A stretch of DNA of 51,232 nt from a virus (IMGVR_UViG_3300033143_001541:1-51232), one strand, 5' to 3'. Positions 18,053 to 51,232 are shown, counted from the stretch's first letter. Notes: generated by a model from the letters alone, not told the origin. Translations and numbers: made by a program.

Positions 18053-19062
18053 TCGATATATTACAATACCTACCTCCGCGTACTCGAAAGAGCCCGAGCG
18101 GCTGGTTCTCATTTAACGCTCCGTGTTGTGTCCATAATGGAGAAACACCCGATAAGAAGAAACGTGGCGGTTTCATATTTGACGGCGACGATTGGGCATA
18201 TCACTGTTTCAACTGTAAGTACAAAGCACGTTTTAAAAACGGACAGCAACTAAGTCTAAAAGCACGTAACCTTTTAAAGTGGATTGGCGTAGACGCCGCG
18301 ACCATTAATAAAATAAACTTAGACAGTTTAAAAAATAAAAAGATATACGATATTGCAAGCGACCGAACTAACGCAGCAAATGAAATAGTACAACGTAACA
18401 TATTCTTTAAGAAGCAAACACTACCAACATCCGCACGTAAAATTATGTCGTGTGACAAGTGGGCTATAGAGTACTTAGAAGGACGCGGGCTTAATTACAG
18501 AGACTACGACTTTAAAATAACCCCGCAAGATAAAGGACGTAACCAACGCCGTATTATGATACCGTACAAGTACGGAACCGATGTAGTAGGATGGACAAGT
18601 CGTTACTTAGATACTAAAACACCTAAGTACAAGAATGAACACACTTCACCAGGATATGTATTTGGCTTAGATATGCAACACAACGATTGGGATTATTTAA
18701 TTGTAATGGAAGGCATATTTGATGCTATAAGCATTAAAGGTGTCGGCTTGTTACATGGTGAGATAAGTGAGATGCAAGCTGCGATACTACGCAGGCAGGG
18801 CAAAGAGATTATAGTAGTTCCTGACATGGATAAGGCAGGATTAGCATTAGCTGAACAAGCCATTGAATTAGGATTTACAATAAGTATCCCAGAATGGGAC
18901 GATAACATTAAGGATGTCAATGACGCTGTGAAAGCGTATGGCAAGCTTGGGACATTGTTAAGTATTTTAAATAACAAGACAACAAGTAAGATACGGGCTA
19001 AGATGTTAATTACTAGCCTACGGAAAAGGATAGCACACGTAGATGACAGAGTACACGTTTGA
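18049..19062 (+). CDS. 61: DNA primase gp61
   Basis: Makes RNA primers for lagging-strand synthesis with helicase gp41. The N-terminal zinc site is C26-C27-x-H29 with C53xxC56 (YHCFNCKYKA). The TOPRIM catalytic parts are VMEGIFDAI (E221) and VVPDMDKAG (D259, D261). At 337 residues it matches T4 gp61 (342). The start shares ATGA with the previous gene and stands directly at a promoter. The gp41 gene overlaps its end by 20 bases, keeping the primosome pair together. Confidence 0.94.
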   Translation: MIDILQYLPPRTRKSPSGWFSFNAPCCVHNGETPDKKKRGGFIFDGDDWAYHCFNCKYKARFKNGQQLSLKARNLLKWIGVDAATINKINLDSLKNKKIYDIASDRTNAANEIVQRNIFFKKQTLPTSARKIMSCDKWAIEYLEGRGLNYRDYDFKITPQDKGRNQRRIMIPYKYGTDVVGWTSRYLDTKTPKYKNEHTSPGYVFGLDMQHNDWDYLIVMEGIFDAISIKGVGLLHGEISEMQAAILRRQGKEIIVVPDMDKAGLALAEQAIELGFTISIPEWDDNIKDVNDAVKAYGKLGTLLSILNNKTTSKIRAKMLITSLRKRIAHVDDRVHV

Positions 19063-20449
19063 GATACAAAAACTATTTTTAGAAATGATGATAGCAGACG
19101 CACAGACTTTTGTGCGCGTACAGAATATATTTAATGTAGAAAACTTCCACCCGCAGTTACAACCAGCTGCGGACTTTATAGAAAAGCACAGTGAGAAGTA
19201 CGGTACCTTACCGGAGTTAAGTCAGCTAGAAGCAATGACGGAAGTTAAGCTGGCACCACTGCCTGAAGAAATTAATGAAGGGCATTACGATTGGTTCTTA
19301 GAAGAGTTTGAAAGCTTTACTAAACGACAAGAACTTGAACGCGCAATACTTAGTGCAGCAGACATGTTAGAAGCTGGTGACTTTGAACCAGTTGAGAAAA
19401 TTATTAAAGATGCTGTACAAATTAGTCTAACAAAAGACTTAGGTATAGATTACTTTGCAGACCCAAGAGAACGTTTGATGAATATTAAGAATAACAATGG
19501 ACAAGCAAGCACGGGCTGGCCATGCATGGATGCAAAATTGTACGGCGGATTCAACAGAGGCGAATTGCAAATATTCGCAGGTGGCTCTGGTTCAGGCAAA
19601 TCATTGTTCATGCAGAACTTAGCAGTTAACTGGGTTGAGCAAGGACTTAACGGTGTGTTCATTACACTAGAATTAAGTGAAGACTTATGTGCTATGCGTT
19701 TAGATAGCATGATGACAGGCACTGCAAGTAAATCAATATTTAAGAGTATTGATGACGTTGAAATGAAAGTTAGGATCAAAGCTAAGAAGTCCGGCGACTT
19801 ACAGATTAAATATTTCCCAGCACAGAGTAACATTAACGACATACGTTCGTATGTTAAAGAACTGCAAATTAAAACCGGCAAGCGTATTGACTTCATGTGC
19901 ATTGATTACTTAGATCTATTAATGCCAGTAAGTGCTAAAGTAAGTCCAAGTGATTTGTTTGTTAAGGACAAGTACGTATCAGAAGAAATACGTAACTTAG
20001 GTAAAGAGCTTGATGTACTAATGGTTACAGCATCACAGCTTAACCGTTCAGCAGTTGAAGAAGTAGAATTCGATCATAGTATGATATCAGGTGGCATTAG
20101 TAAAATTAATACAGCTGATAACGTGTTTGGTATCTTTACAAGTAGAGCAATGCGTGAACGTGGCAAGTACCAATTACAGTTAATGAAAACACGTAGCTCA
20201 GGTGGTGTAGGACAAAAGATTGATTTAGACTTCGACGTTGATACATTGCGTATAGTAGATTTAGGTGACACAGGCGCAATGGGCACAGGCCATAGCAATT
20301 CGCCGACTAACATAATGAACAGCATTAAAGCTAAGTCTACAGTAACTAACGTACCAGAAGATGATAATGCAGAAGTGGGCAAAGTAACAGCAGATGTACA
20401 GTCTAATAAGTTAAACTCGTTACTTAACAAGATTAAACAAAAACCATAA
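19043..20449 (+). CDS. 41: Replicative DNA helicase gp41 (DnaB family)
   Basis: Hexameric 5'-3' helicase of the fork. Small N-terminal helical domain, then RecA-like core: Walker A GGSGSGKS (180-187), Walker B MCIDYLDLLMP, and the glutamine/arginine-finger region VTASQLNRSAVEE. The SRAMRERGKYQLQLMKTRSS segment is typical of DnaB-like C-termini. 468 residues against 475 in T4. The Ser/Asp-rich tail ending LNSLLNKIKQKP may bind primase or gp59. Confidence 0.95.
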   Translation: MTEYTFEIQKLFLEMMIADAQTFVRVQNIFNVENFHPQLQPAADFIEKHSEKYGTLPELSQLEAMTEVKLAPLPEEINEGHYDWFLEEFESFTKRQELERAILSAADMLEAGDFEPVEKIIKDAVQISLTKDLGIDYFADPRERLMNIKNNNGQASTGWPCMDAKLYGGFNRGELQIFAGGSGSGKSLFMQNLAVNWVEQGLNGVFITLELSEDLCAMRLDSMMTGTASKSIFKSIDDVEMKVRIKAKKSGDLQIKYFPAQSNINDIRSYVKELQIKTGKRIDFMCIDYLDLLMPVSAKVSPSDLFVKDKYVSEEIRNLGKELDVLMVTASQLNRSAVEEVEFDHSMISGGISKINTADNVFGIFTSRAMRERGKYQLQLMKTRSSGGVGQKIDLDFDVDTLRIVDLGDTGAMGTGHSNSPTNIMNSIKAKSTVTNVPEDDNAEVGKVTADVQSNKLNSLLNKIKQKP

Positions 20450-20473: not shown

Positions 20474-20722
20474 ATGCAAAAGAAAACACGTAGTATATTA
20501 GAAGAACTTGAATCAATGCATACAAAGCGCGATTCGCGGTATGTAATTGAATCTAGAGCTGAAAATATTATTGCAAGTGCTATTAATCTAATAGAATTAA
20601 TGGAAGATACTTACACAGAAGAAGAAACAGAAAACTTAACACGTAAATTGTTGAACTCTATTAAACTTAAAGACTCGTTAAAATTTAAGAGAAGCTTAGG
20701 ACGAATCAATGAGAGCAAATGA
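20474..20722 (+). CDS. Small helical late protein, unknown
   Basis: 82 residues, nearly all helix-forming (RSILEELESMHTKRDSRYVI, EETENLTRKLLNSIKLKD). No family name is recognised. It follows a late box and overlaps the next gene by 14 bases. Probably a virion or assembly component, by context. Confidence 0.65.
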   Translation: MQKKTRSILEELESMHTKRDSRYVIESRAENIIASAINLIELMEDTYTEEETENLTRKLLNSIKLKDSLKFKRSLGRINESK

Positions 20723-21455
20723 ATTCATAGTAGAGGCACCACAGTGGATGCATAAAGCATCACAGGGAATGGCTACTGGCACACTAGCAACGGCTTTGCA
20801 GAAAACACTACATAAAAAAGTACATAATTTAATTAATCGTGTAGAAGCAGCCGGCGGCGAAATGCCAAAGGAAAAGATATCTACAATGGTTACTGATATA
20901 TTAAGTCAGATGCTCAGAGTAGATATTGATGATCCTGTATTCGGTAATAGAATTAATGCAACCGTTGACGCAATAACAGATGACCCTAGTTTAACTAGTC
21001 GTTCAGCATTGCATGACATTTTAAAACAGGTTGTAGGTTTAGCGTTTCAATTAGATCGTCGTACTAAACCGTCAAAGAAAGATGATGAAGAAGATAGTCA
21101 GAATGATGGAGATAGTGAGCTTGCAGTAGATGAACCGACAGCAAGTGAGCGAGCAGAAGCAGAAGTTATTCCGGGTGAATCGCGTCAACCGCCACCTGAC
21201 AATTTTGCAGGAACAAAATTCGTTGATCCTGAGGAGCCTACTACCGCATTTGTTAACAATGATGGTGAATATACTAAGTGGGTAGAATCAGATACACCAG
21301 GTGTATATGAATTTATAAACACAATGTACAAAGAAACAACCATTGATCAGATTGAAAAAGTGGTTGCGATTAAAAATATTAAACCTTCAGCAGTACGTGT
21401 AGTTAAAGTTGCAGACGGACTGTATAAATTTGTAACTCCAAGGAAACGTAAATGA
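20709..21455 (+). CDS. Putative capsid-targeted internal protein
   Basis: 248 residues beginning MRANEFIVEA, closely like the N-terminal targeting peptide of T4 internal proteins (MKTYQEFIAEA), which gp21 protease cuts after Glu. A helical domain follows to about residue 120, then an acidic linker (SKKDDEEDSQNDGDSELAVD), then a small beta domain ending in KFVTPRKRK. If the analogy holds, the mature protein is packed in the head. It overlaps the next gene by 4 bases, so the nucleotidyltransferase-ligase protein may be its partner. Confidence 0.7.
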   Translation: MRANEFIVEAPQWMHKASQGMATGTLATALQKTLHKKVHNLINRVEAAGGEMPKEKISTMVTDILSQMLRVDIDDPVFGNRINATVDAITDDPSLTSRSALHDILKQVVGLAFQLDRRTKPSKKDDEEDSQNDGDSELAVDEPTASERAEAEVIPGESRQPPPDNFAGTKFVDPEEPTTAFVNNDGEYTKWVESDTPGVYEFINTMYKETTIDQIEKVVAIKNIKPSAVRVVKVADGLYKFVTPRKRK

Positions 21456-23344
21456 AGTTATTAGAAGGTGGCAATGCATTTTCGGACATTAGTCGTATAG
21501 CTAAGGATGATATTGCACGTTCATTGCAACCTGTGCAAAAAGTACTAGGTATCGACTTAGGACCAAGTACATACTTAGGCACCACAGGTAAAAAAGCAGA
21601 CAGTGGCGACATTGACATTGCAGTTGATGTAACTAAGCACGATAAAAAAGATATAGCAAATAAATTACGAGCAGCTTACGGTAAAGAAAACGTTAGACTT
21701 ACAGGTACAAATGTGCATCTTAAAATGCCAGTACTTGATGCAACAAATAGAGAAACAGGACAGTACGCACAGTTAGATTTGATGCTAGGTAATCCTGCAT
21801 TTCAAGCTTGGAGTATGCGTGGCGAACCTGGTAGATTCAAAGGTGTCCATAGACATATAGTAATGTCTAGTATTGCAAGAGCACAAGGCTTAAAGTGGAG
21901 TTACTTAAACGGACTTACTAAAGGTGATGCACCTAAAGGAACACAAGGCGAGCAAGACCCAACTGCTATTATTAATGCATTGTTACCCGGCAGTAGTATT
22001 CCACCAAAGAACTTTAACATTGATACTATTTTAAAATACATAGGTGGTAAGTTTGACAGTTCCGGACAAGAAAAATTACTTGGTGCCGCAGCAGAAACAC
22101 TGGCCGCACACTACGATACACAATTAGTAGTTAACGAATCAATTGCACACAACAACGATCCAGACGAATACTTCTTAGCTAAACTACGTGACAGAATTGT
22201 AGTACAAGACATGGTACCACTTATAGACAGTGTAAACTTTTATAAGCCGTACATGGTAGAAGCTAAGTTACGTGATATGAATCACTTAGAAGACTTAGTG
22301 CTTGAAGAAGGTATGAATGGTATTATTCGTGCTATTAAAATATTACGTGCATTTGCAGAAGGCAAAGCACATGCAGAAACAACAATCAAATGGGACGGCA
22401 GCCCCGCAATCGTATTCGGCAGAAACGAAGCAGGTGAGTTTTTCTTAACTGATAAGAGTGGCTGGTCGGCTAAAGGCTACGATGGCAAAGCAACGTCAGC
22501 TAAAGCACTTGGACAAATGTTTGCTAATCGTAAAGCACCAATGGACGCTAACCGTCAAAAGTTTGTTAGCAACATGATGGACATATTCGACGAGTACCAA
22601 AAAGCAACACCATCTGCATTCCGTGGTGTACTTAGCGGTGACTTAATGTATTACAATACTCCACCGACAGAAGGTAATGATTTTATATTCACTCCTAATG
22701 TTGTAACTTATAAAGTAAATCGTAAGTCTAAATTAGGACAACGCATTGGACAAAGTAAGACTGGTGTAGTAGTACACAAGTACATAGGCGACACGTACAG
22801 CTCAACTGAAGAAGCTATTAAACAAATACAAGGTACAGAAGTATTTGTTATACCACCTGTTTATGTACAGCAACCATCTAAGATTAATACAGCACCAATT
22901 GATAAGATGGAAGCATTTGCTAATAAAAATGCAAAGGCAGTGCAAGCTTTATTTGATCCAGCAGGACTTAAAGGTATTGCTAATATACATGCACTAATGT
23001 ACAAGTACATTAACAACAGCGTAGATACAGGCTTAGATAAACTTGGTAGTGATTTCGGCGATTGGCTGAACACAGAAAAGCTTACTGACAGAAAGCGTGA
23101 GAATATACTCAAGTACCTAAATGCTAACATCAAAGGTGTGCAAGCACTTTGGGTACTTATTAAAGGTGTAATGAAACTTAAAGATAGCATTGTAGCAGAG
23201 TTTGATGCACACCCAAGTGACGTGCAACAGATAACAGCAGGTGAACCAGGTGGCGAAGGATACGTAGTACAGACGAAGCAAGGCCCTGTTAAACTGGTGT
23301 CTAGGCACAAATTTACCGCAGCAAATAGAGCAGCACACAGGTAA
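21452..23344 (+). CDS. Fusion of pol-beta-type nucleotidyltransferase and ATP-dependent ligase-like domain
   Basis: 630 residues with two catalytic-looking parts. N-terminal: YLGTTGKKADSGDIDIAVD (41-59) is the G[ST]...DxD motif of pol-beta nucleotidyltransferases (D53, D55), and QLDLML supplies the third Asp (D109). C-terminal: TIKWDGSPA holds K313-x-D-G, motif I of covalent ligases; GVLSGDLMY (392-400) fits motif III, FIFTPNVVTYKV motif IIIa, GGEGYVVQT (600-608) motif IV, and PVKLVSRHKF (612-621) motif V with K614. Residues 130-300 are a linker region. This suggests RNA or DNA end repair: nucleotide addition, then sealing. Function is inferred. It lies in the late, capsid-related cluster and starts inside the previous gene (ATGA). 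Confidence 0.72.
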   Translation: MKLLEGGNAFSDISRIAKDDIARSLQPVQKVLGIDLGPSTYLGTTGKKADSGDIDIAVDVTKHDKKDIANKLRAAYGKENVRLTGTNVHLKMPVLDATNRETGQYAQLDLMLGNPAFQAWSMRGEPGRFKGVHRHIVMSSIARAQGLKWSYLNGLTKGDAPKGTQGEQDPTAIINALLPGSSIPPKNFNIDTILKYIGGKFDSSGQEKLLGAAAETLAAHYDTQLVVNESIAHNNDPDEYFLAKLRDRIVVQDMVPLIDSVNFYKPYMVEAKLRDMNHLEDLVLEEGMNGIIRAIKILRAFAEGKAHAETTIKWDGSPAIVFGRNEAGEFFLTDKSGWSAKGYDGKATSAKALGQMFANRKAPMDANRQKFVSNMMDIFDEYQKATPSAFRGVLSGDLMYYNTPPTEGNDFIFTPNVVTYKVNRKSKLGQRIGQSKTGVVVHKYIGDTYSSTEEAIKQIQGTEVFVIPPVYVQQPSKINTAPIDKMEAFANKNAKAVQALFDPAGLKGIANIHALMYKYINNSVDTGLDKLGSDFGDWLNTEKLTDRKRENILKYLNANIKGVQALWVLIKGVMKLKDSIVAEFDAHPSDVQQITAGEPGGEGYVVQTKQGPVKLVSRHKFTAANRAAHR

Positions 23345-25621: not shown

Positions 25622-25993
25622 ATGACTGATAAAATACTTACAGAAGCTTTCGATAAAATGAAAGAAATTGAAGAATCTGATGATCCGTTTTGCATAGGTG
25701 CAACTGGTGACACTGATAACACTACAGGGTACACAGCGGTTGAAGAAACTGTTGAAGAAGCTGTTGAAGATTGGGCACAACCTACATCATACGAAGTAAC
25801 AGATGATAATGGTCAACATTTTTCATTACACTACCAAGACGCAAACGGACAAGAGCAAGGCATCATTGAAGTAAATGGTGTTACAGTAGCTCATTTTATA
25901 GTAGGCGGAGCTGGAGCGCACAGTGTAAAAATTATCAATGACGATGCAGTAGTTAGCGCACTCGAATCACTAATTGTAACAGGCAACGAGTAA
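25622..25993 (+). CDS. Putative prohead-cargo protein, MTDKILTEAF type
   Basis: 123 residues. Begins MTDKILTEAFDKM, nearly identical to the start of the next gene product (MTDKILKEAFDRM), although the remainders differ. ILTE|A fits the gp21-type cleavage rule (hydrophobic-x-Glu). A beta-rich C-terminal part (QGIIEVNGVTVAHFIVGGAG) follows an acidic linker. Virion location is inferred from the shared N-terminus and cluster. Confidence 0.65.
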   Translation: MTDKILTEAFDKMKEIEESDDPFCIGATGDTDNTTGYTAVEETVEEAVEDWAQPTSYEVTDDNGQHFSLHYQDANGQEQGIIEVNGVTVAHFIVGGAGAHSVKIINDDAVVSALESLIVTGNE

Positions 25994-26379
25994 TGACTGA
26001 TAAGATTCTTAAAGAAGCATTTGATCGTATGATTGCTATTGAAGCAGAAGAAGATTCGTTTAATGCTGAAGATGAACAGATAGCAGCTATTGGGCAGCTA
26101 ATAGCTGATCGCACCGAAGATGAAAACTCTGTATCTAAACTTAGTACAGAAGCATTTATTGACATTGCTAATAGAATGGGATTATCATTGACACCAGAAA
26201 CACTTATGGATCTTGCACAAAGCGGCAAGATTGATTCAGTTATTAAAGATGTTAACCAGGACGAAGTACAGTTTAAAGGTCAGCAAGATATTGATGATGC
26301 AGTTATGTCAGTAGACAAAGCTAAACAAACAGTCGATAAGATGGCTAAGCGCAACGCCAAGAAAGGTATACACAAATGA
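25993..26379 (+). CDS. Putative prohead-cargo protein, MTDKILKEAF type
   Basis: 128 residues, acidic and helical. Its N-terminal 16 residues resemble those of the preceding protein, suggesting duplication or shared targeting peptide. The C-terminus is basic (DKMAKRNAKKGIHK). One-base overlap with the upstream gene and 4-base overlap with the next. No enzyme motif. Confidence 0.65.
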   Translation: MTDKILKEAFDRMIAIEAEEDSFNAEDEQIAAIGQLIADRTEDENSVSKLSTEAFIDIANRMGLSLTPETLMDLAQSGKIDSVIKDVNQDEVQFKGQQDIDDAVMSVDKAKQTVDKMAKRNAKKGIHK

Positions 26380-26821: not shown

Positions 26822-27406
26822 ATGAAAGCTTCAGAGTTCATAACAGAAGCTCTAACTTCCCCTTATAAAGTTAACTTCCACAACAGTGTAACATGGCCAG
26901 CAACTGAAGGCGGCAGAGACCGTGTTGGCGTTGATGCTGAATTCAGAACAGATGCAGGTATTAATTACAGTATTATTGGCTACCGAATCGGCCAGACCAA
27001 ACCAGAACGCGATAAAAGAAAAGCAGACGCAGAAGCTAAACGTAAACGCGCAGAAGCCGGCGAACGTGTACTTATGATTCCGGCTAATCCACGTTACGGT
27101 GGTATATGGGAAATACATTTCAGTCAAGAATCTGAAGACCGTAACTACGAAAAATCCAAGTCCGGACTAACAGGTACGGGTGATGAGTTTAGAATATTTG
27201 CAACAGTGTTTCACGTTATTGAAAGAATTGCATCGGTTTATAAACCAAAAATAATTAGCATTAAAGCAGCGCACGAAAGCACTAGAGTAAAACTGTACGA
27301 AAGAATGGCAAAGAAGTACGCAAGTAAAATAGGCTACACTTATGTTAAGACTACTATGCAAAGTGATGGCGCAAGAATAGAGTTAAGACGTAATGAAAGC
27401 AAGTGA
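26822..27406 (+). CDS. Internal-protein-like paralogue A (MKASEFITEA)
   Basis: 194 residues starting MKASEFITEALT, the best match in the window to the T4 capsid-targeting peptide. It is a tandem paralogue of the next gene: both contain RYGGIWEIHF, SGDEFR-type plus FATV, ISIKAA/ISIKSA and a C-terminal LYERMAKKYASKIGY/LYKRLADRFAGQVGY segment. The same fold occurs in many phages without known function; a GNAT-like or other small transferase fold is conceivable. A basic middle (RDKRKADAEAKRKRAEAGER) could bind DNA. Confidence 0.7.
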   Translation: MKASEFITEALTSPYKVNFHNSVTWPATEGGRDRVGVDAEFRTDAGINYSIIGYRIGQTKPERDKRKADAEAKRKRAEAGERVLMIPANPRYGGIWEIHFSQESEDRNYEKSKSGLTGTGDEFRIFATVFHVIERIASVYKPKIISIKAAHESTRVKLYERMAKKYASKIGYTYVKTTMQSDGARIELRRNESK

Positions 27407-27956
27407 GTTCATAACAGAAGCAGTTACTAATCCTTACCCTTACGATTACAACAATTACGTACAGTACAAGACAGATAGAAAACGCAAGCAGAAGGGCATA
27501 ACAGGCCGCTTCACCACAGCTACAGGTGCGAAGTACTTAGTTAAAGGTATACACAACGGTCAGACTAAAGCTGAACGTGACGAAGATGCCGCGTACATTG
27601 CAGCAATTAAAAAAAGACGTGCAGCAGGCGAGCCAGACGAAATTAACTTAGCTGGTGCACAAGATGAACGCTACGGTGGTATATGGGAAATACACTTTGA
27701 CAAGATAGAACAAGATGAAGAGCTTGATCCATTCGGTAATGAATTACAGTACAAATCAGAGCTAACAAAAAGTGGTGATGAGTTTAGAGTATTTGCAACA
27801 GTACTAGAAATAATTAAACGCACTATAGGCGAGTTCAAACCTGAGTACATTAGTATTAAGTCGGCAAACGCAGAAGGCAAACGCGCATCACTGTATAAAC
27901 GTTTAGCAGATCGCTTTGCAGGACAAGTTGGTTACGCATTGACAAGTAACATTTAG
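27393..27956 (+). CDS. Internal-protein-like paralogue B (MKASEFITEA)
   Basis: 187 residues with the same first ten residues as paralogue A and the shared blocks listed there. It overlaps A by 14 bases. Differences centre on residues 15-110, so the targeting peptide and the C-terminal fold are the conserved parts. The promoter of the next gene lies across its end. Confidence 0.7.
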   Translation: MKASEFITEAVTNPYPYDYNNYVQYKTDRKRKQKGITGRFTTATGAKYLVKGIHNGQTKAERDEDAAYIAAIKKRRAAGEPDEINLAGAQDERYGGIWEIHFDKIEQDEELDPFGNELQYKSELTKSGDEFRVFATVLEIIKRTIGEFKPEYISIKSANAEGKRASLYKRLADRFAGQVGYALTSNI

Positions 27957-49474: not shown

Positions 49475-49846
49475 ATGAATGATATAGTTGTAATGTTTAT
49501 ACCAGCCACTAAGTGGTACAAGAAATCAAAATGGAAGTTAATGAATCATTACACTTCTGTTAATAAAGAAGTTACAGTGCCAGTCGGTTATGTAACTGAT
49601 GGCGCAAGTATTCCGAGTTTTCTTAGTATGTTCTTTTCTCCAACAGGCAAATATTTTGGCGCAGCTATTGTTCATGATTATGTTATATCAGAAGAAAAAA
49701 ACTGGGGCCGTGCAAACGATCAGTTTAATAAAGAATTAAAAGCACTTGGTATTGCTAAATGGCGCAGAAACATTTTACTTTGGGGCGTTAAATTTTGGCG
49801 CGGTGTATTAAAGTTGATTGGTGTTAACTCAGCGGATGAGATTTAA
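49475..49846 (+). CDS. DUF1353 family protein
   Basis: 123 residues. VPVGYVTDGASIPSFLSMFF, then GAAIVHDYVISE and NDQFNKELKALGIAKWRRNI, are the motifs of DUF1353, a phage family linked to tail/lysis regions with possible peptidase-like His-Asp residues. Here it directly follows the fibre gene cluster. It is convergent with the minus-strand glycosyltransferase, overlapping it by 18 bases. Confidence 0.8.
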   Translation: MNDIVVMFIPATKWYKKSKWKLMNHYTSVNKEVTVPVGYVTDGASIPSFLSMFFSPTGKYFGAAIVHDYVISEEKNWGRANDQFNKELKALGIAKWRRNILLWGVKFWRGVLKLIGVNSADEI

Positions 49847-51121
49847 TCCAGGTAAGTCCATCCAATCACTGTACTTCTCAATTATATCTAATGCAACTTT
49901 TGGTTTAGTCTTAGCCATATGAGCTATAATAACTTTGCAACGTTCGCGATTATCTTCACCTATATCAAGTCCTTCTTTAGCGAGCTTATCTAAGTACATA
50001 AAGTAAGTACCGCCCGGCATTGTATAAAATTCTTCATCACGTGCCTTAATAGCTTTGTTTAAATTATTGTGCATTTCGTTTATGATAGTATCTTCAAAGT
50101 AAGAACTAAAGAAGTGACGCCTATTATAAGATACAACGTGTTGGACACGTGACATTAGTAAGTCGTAGTCTTCTTCACTCAAGTTGGATATGTGTTGAAT
50201 AACATCCATAATCATATCCATACGCTTATCAGGATCCATTTCGCTATCGTAGCTTTCATCCCATAGCCCTTCAAATGTACGGAAGCCGTAACTACGTAGG
50301 TACTTTAAAGAGTTTGGACAGCCCACTATAATAAACGGTTGCTTCATAACAATAGGCTTAAACACTTTTTCAGTTAAATGTGTTTTGGTTGTGTTGAATA
50401 ATGTTTCAGGCACAATTTGTATATCAAATTTACCGCAATCCTCAGTCACTATAGTCGCACTTGCTGTACTATCGTACTCAGTCTCAGCAGCTGGAAAATG
50501 AACATTAAGTTGTGGAGCAATTTTAAACATTGGCTCTTGTAATTCGAAATGTAATTGATCTTTGTACAGTACCAAACGCTGAGCAAGCTCAAGTCTGTAT
50601 TCTCTACTGCCACTTGCATCACGAGCATACATACCAAAACGCCTTGACTCAGCACCACGTTTCATGCTATAATGTTTCCAGTGCCTATACCAATCGCGAG
50701 CAATTAATCCGTGATAGAAGTAATGCACAGCATGAAAATGGTTCTGCTCAAACAATGCAACTTCGTCACTATTAAGTTCGGAGTGCATTAAAATAGGATT
50801 TGAAACAGCAGAGAAGTGCCTGAATATAAAATCATTCTTAGATAGGTGTTTAAATACATCTAAGCTATATTCGTAACCCTCGGGGTACGAAGAAGGATCG
50901 TAATCGCGCCAGTTGAAATAATTTAAGTCAATTGGCTCTTGATCGAACATTGCAGCTTGCCCAGTATAACGATACGGTGCATCATTGATGGTAAACGAAG
51001 AAACATCGATATCTTTAAGAAGACGTGAGCCATGTACTATAAAAGATTTCAAATCGACATCTTTTTTATTGTCGATTAAGTATTGGTTTAAATAGTTGTA
51101 AAAGTTATTAACGGAAAACAT
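49829..51121 (-). CDS. Putative glycosyltransferase (GT10/fucosyltransferase-like)
   Basis: 430 residues from the Met at 51121 (MFSVNNFYNYLNQYL); 18 further upstream residues are hydrophobic and read through the late box, so they are not used. The signature is in the C-terminal part: ETLFNTTKTHLTEKVFKPIV and QPFIIVGCPNSLKYLRSYGF, the Glu-Asn/TEK-KP arrangement of GT10-like transferases. It may modify host or virion glycans. Divergent from the sugar dehydrogenase start with a 25-base gap. Confidence 0.78.
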   Translation of the reverse strand: MFSVNNFYNYLNQYLIDNKKDVDLKSFIVHGSRLLKDIDVSSFTINDAPYRYTGQAAMFDQEPIDLNYFNWRDYDPSSYPEGYEYSLDVFKHLSKNDFIFRHFSAVSNPILMHSELNSDEVALFEQNHFHAVHYFYHGLIARDWYRHWKHYSMKRGAESRRFGMYARDASGSREYRLELAQRLVLYKDQLHFELQEPMFKIAPQLNVHFPAAETEYDSTASATIVTEDCGKFDIQIVPETLFNTTKTHLTEKVFKPIVMKQPFIIVGCPNSLKYLRSYGFRTFEGLWDESYDSEMDPDKRMDMIMDVIQHISNLSEEDYDLLMSRVQHVVSYNRRHFFSSYFEDTIINEMHNNLNKAIKARDEEFYTMPGGTYFMYLDKLAKEGLDIGEDNRERCKVIIAHMAKTKPKVALDIIEKYSDWMDLPGLNLIR

Positions 51122-51126
51122 ACATG

Positions 51127-51134
51127 TATTTATT
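51127..51134 (-). promoter_or_regulatory. Late-type box AATAAATA on the minus strand, near-leaderless start
   Basis: Reads AATAAATA on the minus strand, 5 nt before the start codon at 51121. Same spacing as the late boxes at 1158 and 35886. Confidence 0.48.
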
Positions 51135-51146
51135 AATGGAGAAATA

Positions 51147-51232
51147 ATGAAGAATAAAACAAACATCGGATTCATCGGCCTTGGAAAATTGGGATTAGAT
51201 TGCGCGGAAGTATTTGCCGAGCATTACAAAAC
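51147..51232 (+). CDS. Nucleotide-sugar dehydrogenase, start only
   Basis: Only 28 codons fit in the window. The sequence NIGFIGLGKLGLDCAEVFAE is an N-terminal Rossmann motif (GxGxxG) of the UDP-glucose/GDP-mannose dehydrogenase family, preceded by a GGAG ribosome site. Other NAD-dependent dehydrogenases share this start, so the family is likely but not certain. Its location beside the glycosyltransferase suits sugar modification. Confidence 0.65.
   Translation, partial: MKNKTNIGFIGLGKLGLDCAEVFAEHYK

Follow-up and report, generated by a model that had tools for sequence, protein, structure and literature searches.

The analysed stretch of viral DNA (51,232 nucleotides; the window) encodes a 630-aa protein in which a minimal, divergent family-X-like polymerase domain is joined to a ligase-like domain of the DUF6267 family, and a motif resembling the target of T4-type prohead proteases stands at each end of the polymerase. 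We propose that this protein is a capsid-targeted precursor that would be cut into two repair enzymes and ejected with the genome for gap filling and sealing, a reading to which we give an even chance. In the literature searched, we did not find a description of this pair in phages, in the form of DUF6267 as the ligase-like half and a polymerase with a capsid-protease site on either side.

The proposed precursor gene and its surroundings

The phage is T4-like and of a marine type: among its replication and head genes in the window are those for terminase, SSB, UvsX, UvsY, helicases and primase, and the nearest cultured relatives of its DnaB-like helicase are the PA5oct-group jumbo phages (48-49%). 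The features of the locus are given in Table 1. The uninterrupted fusion is also found in two relatives (L001 and L002) at 55-62% identity. A second, separate ATP-dependent DNA ligase is encoded by the same phage (38220-39596), and therefore the 630-aa protein is not its main DNA ligase. No match among the PDB sequences was obtained by phmmer with the whole 630-aa protein or by hmmsearch with the profiles of both domains.

Table 1. Features of the proposed precursor locus, in window coordinates; a slash within a motif marks a predicted cut
Feature	Position	Strand	Remarks
DnaB-like replicative helicase	19043..20449	+	marker of conserved genomic position
82-aa neighbour	20474..20722	+	conserved; biggest neighbour cluster, 101 loci
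Upstream ORF	20709..21455	+	T4-type capsid-targeting start MRANEFIVEA; 4-bp overlap with start of 630-aa ORF
Precursor ORF (predicted capsid-targeted)	21452..23344	+	ATG start, 630 aa; in order: leader, family-X-like polymerase domain, linker, DUF6267 ligase-like domain
Leader MKLLE, residues 1-5	21452..21466	+	ends L-L-E; predicted cut E5/G6 (MKLLE/GGN)
Family-X-like polymerase domain, residues 6-229	21467..22138	+	palm and C-terminal (thumb) subdomain; without 8-kDa lyase, without fingers
Catalytic motif G43-T-T-G-K-K-A-D-S-G-D53-I-D55	21578..21616	+	conservation, 56 sequences
Third catalytic Asp D109 (AQLDLM)	21776..21778	+	invariant, 56 sequences
Linker, residues 230-270	22139..22261	+	ends PYMVE270/A271, predicted second cut
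DUF6267 ligase-like domain, residues 271-630	22262..23341	+	PF19782 E 3.5e-37; AlphaFold2 pLDDT 95.1
Motif I K313-W-D-G316	22388..22399	+	K313 predicted adenylylated Lys; invariant, 76 sequences
Motif Ia-like K335-S336	22454..22459	+	K335 at least 90% conserved
Motif III G396-D397-L398	22637..22645	+	G396, D397 at least 90% conserved; Asp replaces Glu
Motif IIIa-like strand K436-T-G-V-V-V-H442	22757..22777	+	H442 at least 90% conserved; strand in model
All-helical insertion, IIIa to IV, ~residues 481-586	22892..23209	+	model secondary structure; K577 invariant
Motif IV E602-G-Y-V-V606	23255..23269	+	E602, G603 invariant
Motif V K614-L-V616	23291..23299	+	K614 invariant

Several other ORFs of the window deserve mention. 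The 82-aa neighbour weakly matches a Pyrin domain (E 8.5e-5), probably spuriously. Two adjoining ORFs (26822-27406 and 27393-27956) share an identical T4-type capsid-targeting start, MKASEFITEA, and have weak PHROG matches in common (phrog_6387, phrog_16075); they are probably duplicated head-internal proteins. Two tandem ORFs with nearly identical starts (25622-25993, MTDKILTEAFD; 25993-26379, MTDKILKEAFD) may be paralogous head proteins. At the contig end, a 448-aa ORF on the minus strand (49829-51175) has no PHROG match.

The N half is a minimal family-X-like polymerase

The motif residues named in the sequence-only reading (D53, D55 and D109; K313-W-D-G, motif III, EGYVV and K614) all lie at the positions assigned to them and vary little or not at all among diverse relatives, 56 for the N half and 76 for the C half. 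In the alignment of 56 diverse N-domains, G43, G46, S51, D53, D55, Q107 and D109 are invariant. The AlphaFold2 model of the domain has a pLDDT of 95.5, and its best 50 Foldseek matches in the PDB are all pol beta or pol lambda (best E 4e-6), aligned over ~200 columns with TMq 0.40-0.51. When the model was searched against BFVD, the phage homologues were followed by giant-virus family X polymerases at E 3e-5 to 8e-4. A profile of 23 archaeal PolX sequences was also matched by hhalign (prob 54, E 1.3e-4) over 142 palm and thumb columns, with the catalytic Asps aligned and the two subdomains colinear, and a single human pol beta stretch gave E 0.015 with half of it misaligned. The Pol-beta-superfamily nucleotidyltransferase (NTase) recognised from the sequence alone is thus borne out and can be narrowed to family X. 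Only ~40 residues precede the catalytic motif, and the 8-kDa lyase and fingers domains are absent. Judged by its modelled fold, this half is a minimal and divergent DNA polymerase of family-X-like type that has neither of the two.

No curated Pfam family matches the N half of the 630-aa protein. DNA_pol_B_thumb matches 2 of the 56 N-domain members, short of its Pfam cut-off (best E 0.063), and, in a scan of 10 records, none at E<=1. Therefore, we name the domain family-X-like and do not file it as a Pfam member. Two other assignments were rejected. RlaP (PF10127) gave no Pfam match at E<=1 and an hhalign probability of 0.1 with 11 RlaP sequences. For CCA/poly(A) polymerase, the hhalign probability with 25 CCA sequences was below 1, and among the BFVD matches listed, a phage nucleotidyltransferase and poxvirus poly(A) polymerase appeared at E 0.4 or worse.

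The C half is a ligase-like DUF6267 domain

Residues 276-625 match DUF6267 (PF19782) with 129 bits, the cut-off being 27. The C half is thus a member of the family known in cyanophages as PHROG 455 or T4-GC71 (E 3.5e-37). The profile matches all 76 members of our alignment of diverse C-domains, in which K313, W314, D315, G316, E602, G603 and K614 do not vary. The covalent nucleotidyltransferase motifs I, Ia, III, IV and V follow one another as they should, and in the model I, III, IV and V lie on the strands expected for them. The motif III residue is usually Glu in ligases. The top Foldseek matches of the model in the PDB are mostly ligases (archaeal DNA ligase, T4 Rnl1, Naegleria RNA ligase, human Lig3/Lig1 and Trl1), but the best E is 0.037 (prob 0.91) and none reaches 1e-3, perhaps because of the ~105-residue helical insertion between motifs IIIa and IV. 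The chain stops 16 residues past the motif V Lys, and an OB-fold or other DNA-ligase C-terminal domain is absent. In addition, hhalign found no tie between the DUF6267 profile and those of DNA ligase, Rnl1 and Rnl2. Of the covalent ligase-like domain proposed earlier, the motif set and the prominence of ligases among the fold matches hold, but those matches are weak. We therefore call the C half ligase-like and do not assign it to a particular ligase family.

DUF6267 occurs in many T4-like cyanophages, in Pelagibacter and Methylophilales phages and in hundreds of marine viral contigs, and is not named in the literature searched. The ligase-motif proteins encoded beside the NTases of jumbo phages are related to it by profile (prob 82, E 1.1e-5).

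The two domains are paired and repeatedly fused

The N-domain profile fetched 79 viral loci, and in 74 of them the NTase and the ligase-like domain are neighbour genes or fused; two of the five unpaired loci end at a contig edge. In unfused pairs the ligase-like gene comes next, often with a 4-bp overlap. Three jumbo phages (Agrobacterium phage Atu_ph07, Sinorhizobium phage Phosso and PA5oct) have a stand-alone N-domain with a gene for another ligase-motif protein just upstream. The fused or split state changes 4-9 times on the N-domain tree. This recurrent fusion, together with the constant adjacency, argues that the two domains act together. The cyanophage members of DUF6267 stand alone, usually without a leader, and are partnered by a neighbouring HIGH-type nucleotidyltransferase instead of PolX. 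Four DUF6267-bearing genomes of Kyanoviridae type yielded no PolX homologue, so that PolX is not a universal companion of DUF6267.

Predicted prohead protease sites flank the polymerase

In T4, the protease gp21 cuts after L/I-X-E (PMC9026906), and a short N-terminal sequence acts as the head-targeting signal that this cut removes (PMC9026906, PMC7411985). The leaders of the NTases vary in length and sequence, and 52 of 55 non-redundant ones end in [LI]xE directly ahead of the conserved GG (here as in the counts below, the sequences are kin and the counts therefore not independent). Four stand-alone NTases, from jumbo or other phages, have no leader and start right at the conserved point (MGG/MSG), so packaging may not be universal. 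Among stand-alone DUF6267 ORFs, 51 of 71 carry a strict site shortly ahead of the conserved H-x-E-D, the chance level of the strict motif being 6.9% of random 14-mers. The cyanophage-type ORFs are mostly without a site.

The fusions carry a site in the linker as well. It is found in all 22 non-redundant fusions, 5-7 residues ahead of the DUF6267 start as marked by H-x-E-D, in linkers that are otherwise variable, and its position matches that of the leader site in the stand-alone ligase. It is strict [LI]xE in 18 fusions and has V or M at P3 in the other four, including the 630-aa ORF, whose MVE, with Met at P3, is a relaxed match to L/I-X-E (the ORF enters this count through its near-copy L003, and Ser occupies P1' in one of the 22). 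One chain adding nucleotides to an end and then sealing it, as first imagined for this protein, sits poorly with such a site; once the head is mature, the two enzymes are likely to be separate.

A protease that could make these cuts is encoded by carriers of the pair. Of 24 carrier records, 8 reach the cut-off for the gp21-type family PF03420, and each of the 8 records >100 kb has it, one of them weakly. No gp21 gene was seen within the partial 51-kb contig. In PA5oct, the NTase EST35_0231, which lacks a cleavable leader, is annotated as 'structural protein, ESI-MS/MS'; the annotation of the ligase-like EST35_0228 bears no mark of MS detection, and virion proteomics detail was not found in the PA5oct biology paper. 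A DUF6267 neighbour, T4-GC190, has a capsid-targeting start in S-SM1 and is reported from the virions of that phage in the cyanophage proteomics paper (PMC3037559), the main text of which does not mention T4-GC71, the DUF6267 protein of cyanophages. Carriage in the virion, earlier raised as a possibility from neighbouring capsid-targeting starts, is likely in view of the leader sites, the gp21-type proteases of carriers and the MS annotation of the PA5oct homologue.

DUF6267 ORFs of 560-580 aa at four loci (L051:1984-3714, L066, L073 and L084) have a low-complexity N-terminal extension of ~200 residues with a capsid-targeting-like start, MKFRDFKTEAP.

Discussion

We suggest the following course of events. 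The precursor would be recruited into the prohead core, where the phage's gp21-type protease would cut it both after E5 and after E270. The mature head would then hold a minimal family-X-type polymerase (residues 6-270) and a DUF6267 covalent nucleotidyltransferase/ligase (residues 271-630), and both would be ejected together with the phage genome. The polymerase half could fill or extend short gaps, and the ligase half could auto-adenylylate on K313 and seal the end. DNA is the likelier substrate, whether at nicks, at gaps or at the ends of the phage genome as it enters, and RNA the next. More broadly, and as a tentative idea somewhat short of an even chance, marine and jumbo T4-like phages may carry in a ready break-repair kit of PolX and DUF6267 ligase from one precursor matured by the capsid protease, so that repair or counter-defence would precede phage gene expression. 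DUF6267, so far without an assigned role, gains a testable function and a link to a family-X-type polymerase that had not been recognised in phages before. Should packaging and processing of the pair take place as predicted, the genome of T4-like phages would arrive together with enzymes for nucleic-acid repair. If true, a precursor split by the capsid protease would also be a use of prohead maturation that we did not find described in the literature searched.

The phage protein has several relatives in architecture. PgVPolX of Phaeocystis globosa virus is a proven PolX-ligase fusion, with gap filling and sealing shown in vitro (PMC5537341). Like the phage protein, it joins a polymerase-type N half to a ligase-type C half in a single chain from a dsDNA virus; its own halves are a family-X polymerase and a DNA ligase. 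However, PgVPolX has a Pol-beta-like core with lyase activity and a homologue of NAD+-dependent DNA ligase, and acts as one chain, whereas the phage ORF has a minimal PolX, a different, DUF6267 ligase-like domain and predicted capsid-protease sites. African swine fever virus (ASFV) has a repair system of PolX, DNA ligase and AP endonuclease (PMC5330486, PMC6344480, PMC7076025), in which a reduced family-X polymerase, without two DNA-binding domains (PMC5330486), works with a viral ligase, as we propose for the phage pair. The ASFV genes are separate, however, and its ligase belongs to another family. Unlike in the ASFV system, no AP endonuclease was recognised beside the phage locus. We know of no prohead-protease sites in the PolX or ligase of ASFV. 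In phages, the RlaP nucleotidyltransferase accompanies ATP-grasp RNA ligases (Burroughs & Aravind 2016, as related in PMC7824862), which again sets a Pol-beta-superfamily NTase alongside a ligase, but the phage N domain has no similarity to RlaP in Pfam or by hhalign (prob 0.1). With these precedents, the earlier claim that no repair enzyme with such a pairing had been described fails.

The predicted route of delivery resembles that of T4 IPI-III and Alt, which have a short N-terminal capsid-targeting sequence, are cut by gp21 after L/I-X-E, and travel inside the head until they are ejected (PMC7411985, PMC9026906). The leader MKLLE of the 630-aa protein fits L/I-X-E. The T4 set consists of internal proteins plus a ribosyltransferase, each of them produced on its own, whereas the 630-aa ORF would supply two repair-type enzymes from one precursor with a predicted internal cut site.

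Alternatively, the pair may serve RNA repair: ejected early, it would mend tRNAs of host or phage that anti-phage nucleases have cut, restoring and resealing them, by analogy with RlaP plus an RNA ligase or with T4 Pnkp/Rnl1. We consider this unlikely, although several observations are consistent with it. Motifs IV and V are closely spaced, with 12 residues from E602 to K614. T4 Rnl1 has a similarly short spacing. In addition, T4 Rnl1 and the Naegleria RNA ligase are within the best 10 Foldseek matches of the C model, and the ligases beside jumbo-phage NTases show sub-threshold RNA_ligase matches (PF09414, E 0.002 and 0.085) and align weakly with Rnl2 in hhalign (prob 26, E 7e-4). The RlaP precedent (as related in PMC7824862) and the phage's own ATP-dependent DNA ligase also fit an RNA substrate. 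However, the N domain is family-X-like and neither RlaP nor CCA, the gene adjoins the replicative helicase, and no tRNA genes were found within the window.

The protein might instead act in the infected cell as an uncut bifunctional repair enzyme, the glutamate site in its linker being a relic of the joining of two capsid-targeted genes. The ORF is single and intact in several lineages, and PgVPolX works as one chain (PMC5537341), but the linker site occurs in every non-redundant fusion, placed as in the leader of the stand-alone ligase despite variable linkers, with the N-terminal leader site retained too. We therefore regard the uncut enzyme as improbable and a cleaved precursor as the better account of the linker. 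More doubtful still is the reading as an effector, ejected and delivered as T4 Alt is but with nucleotidyl transfer as its chemistry, whose targets would be host proteins or small molecules. T4 Alt and the internal proteins do bear capsid-targeting sequences, are cleaved by gp21 and are ejected (PMC7411985). The HIGH-type nucleotidyltransferase that takes the place of PolX in cyanophages also suggests that the partnership of DUF6267 is not strictly one of gap filling. Nevertheless, the palm and thumb of a PolX fold together with ligase motifs indicate nucleic acid, and the known protein adenylylators of the Pol-beta superfamily are, to our knowledge, without a thumb. Finally, head-internal proteins whose enzymatic folds are now purely structural or DNA-condensing, as the adjoining virion structural genes might suggest, are very improbable given catalytic residues that do not vary across the 56 N-domain and 76 C-domain sequences, diverse as these are.

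DUF6267 also occurs in other arrangements. Proteins encoded beside DUF6267/NTase genes at three loci (L007:4647-5666, L005:4947-6005 and L175:26447-27280) have, by eye, a possible PD-(D/E)xK nuclease signature, with no Pfam match. Two single ORFs (L135:3398-5587 and L142:3950-5752) combine DUF6267 with a C-terminal HIGH-type nucleotidyltransferase, recognised by Pfam in L135 (E 0.0024) and in L142 through its motif alone; both domains seem to be covered by PHROG 455. Two longer ORFs, of 990 and 979 aa (L095:3918-6890 and L106:590-3529), encode DUF6267 followed by two nucleotidyltransferase-like domains, and the domains are parted by IDE/GG and ITE/GG motifs, so that these may be triple precursors.
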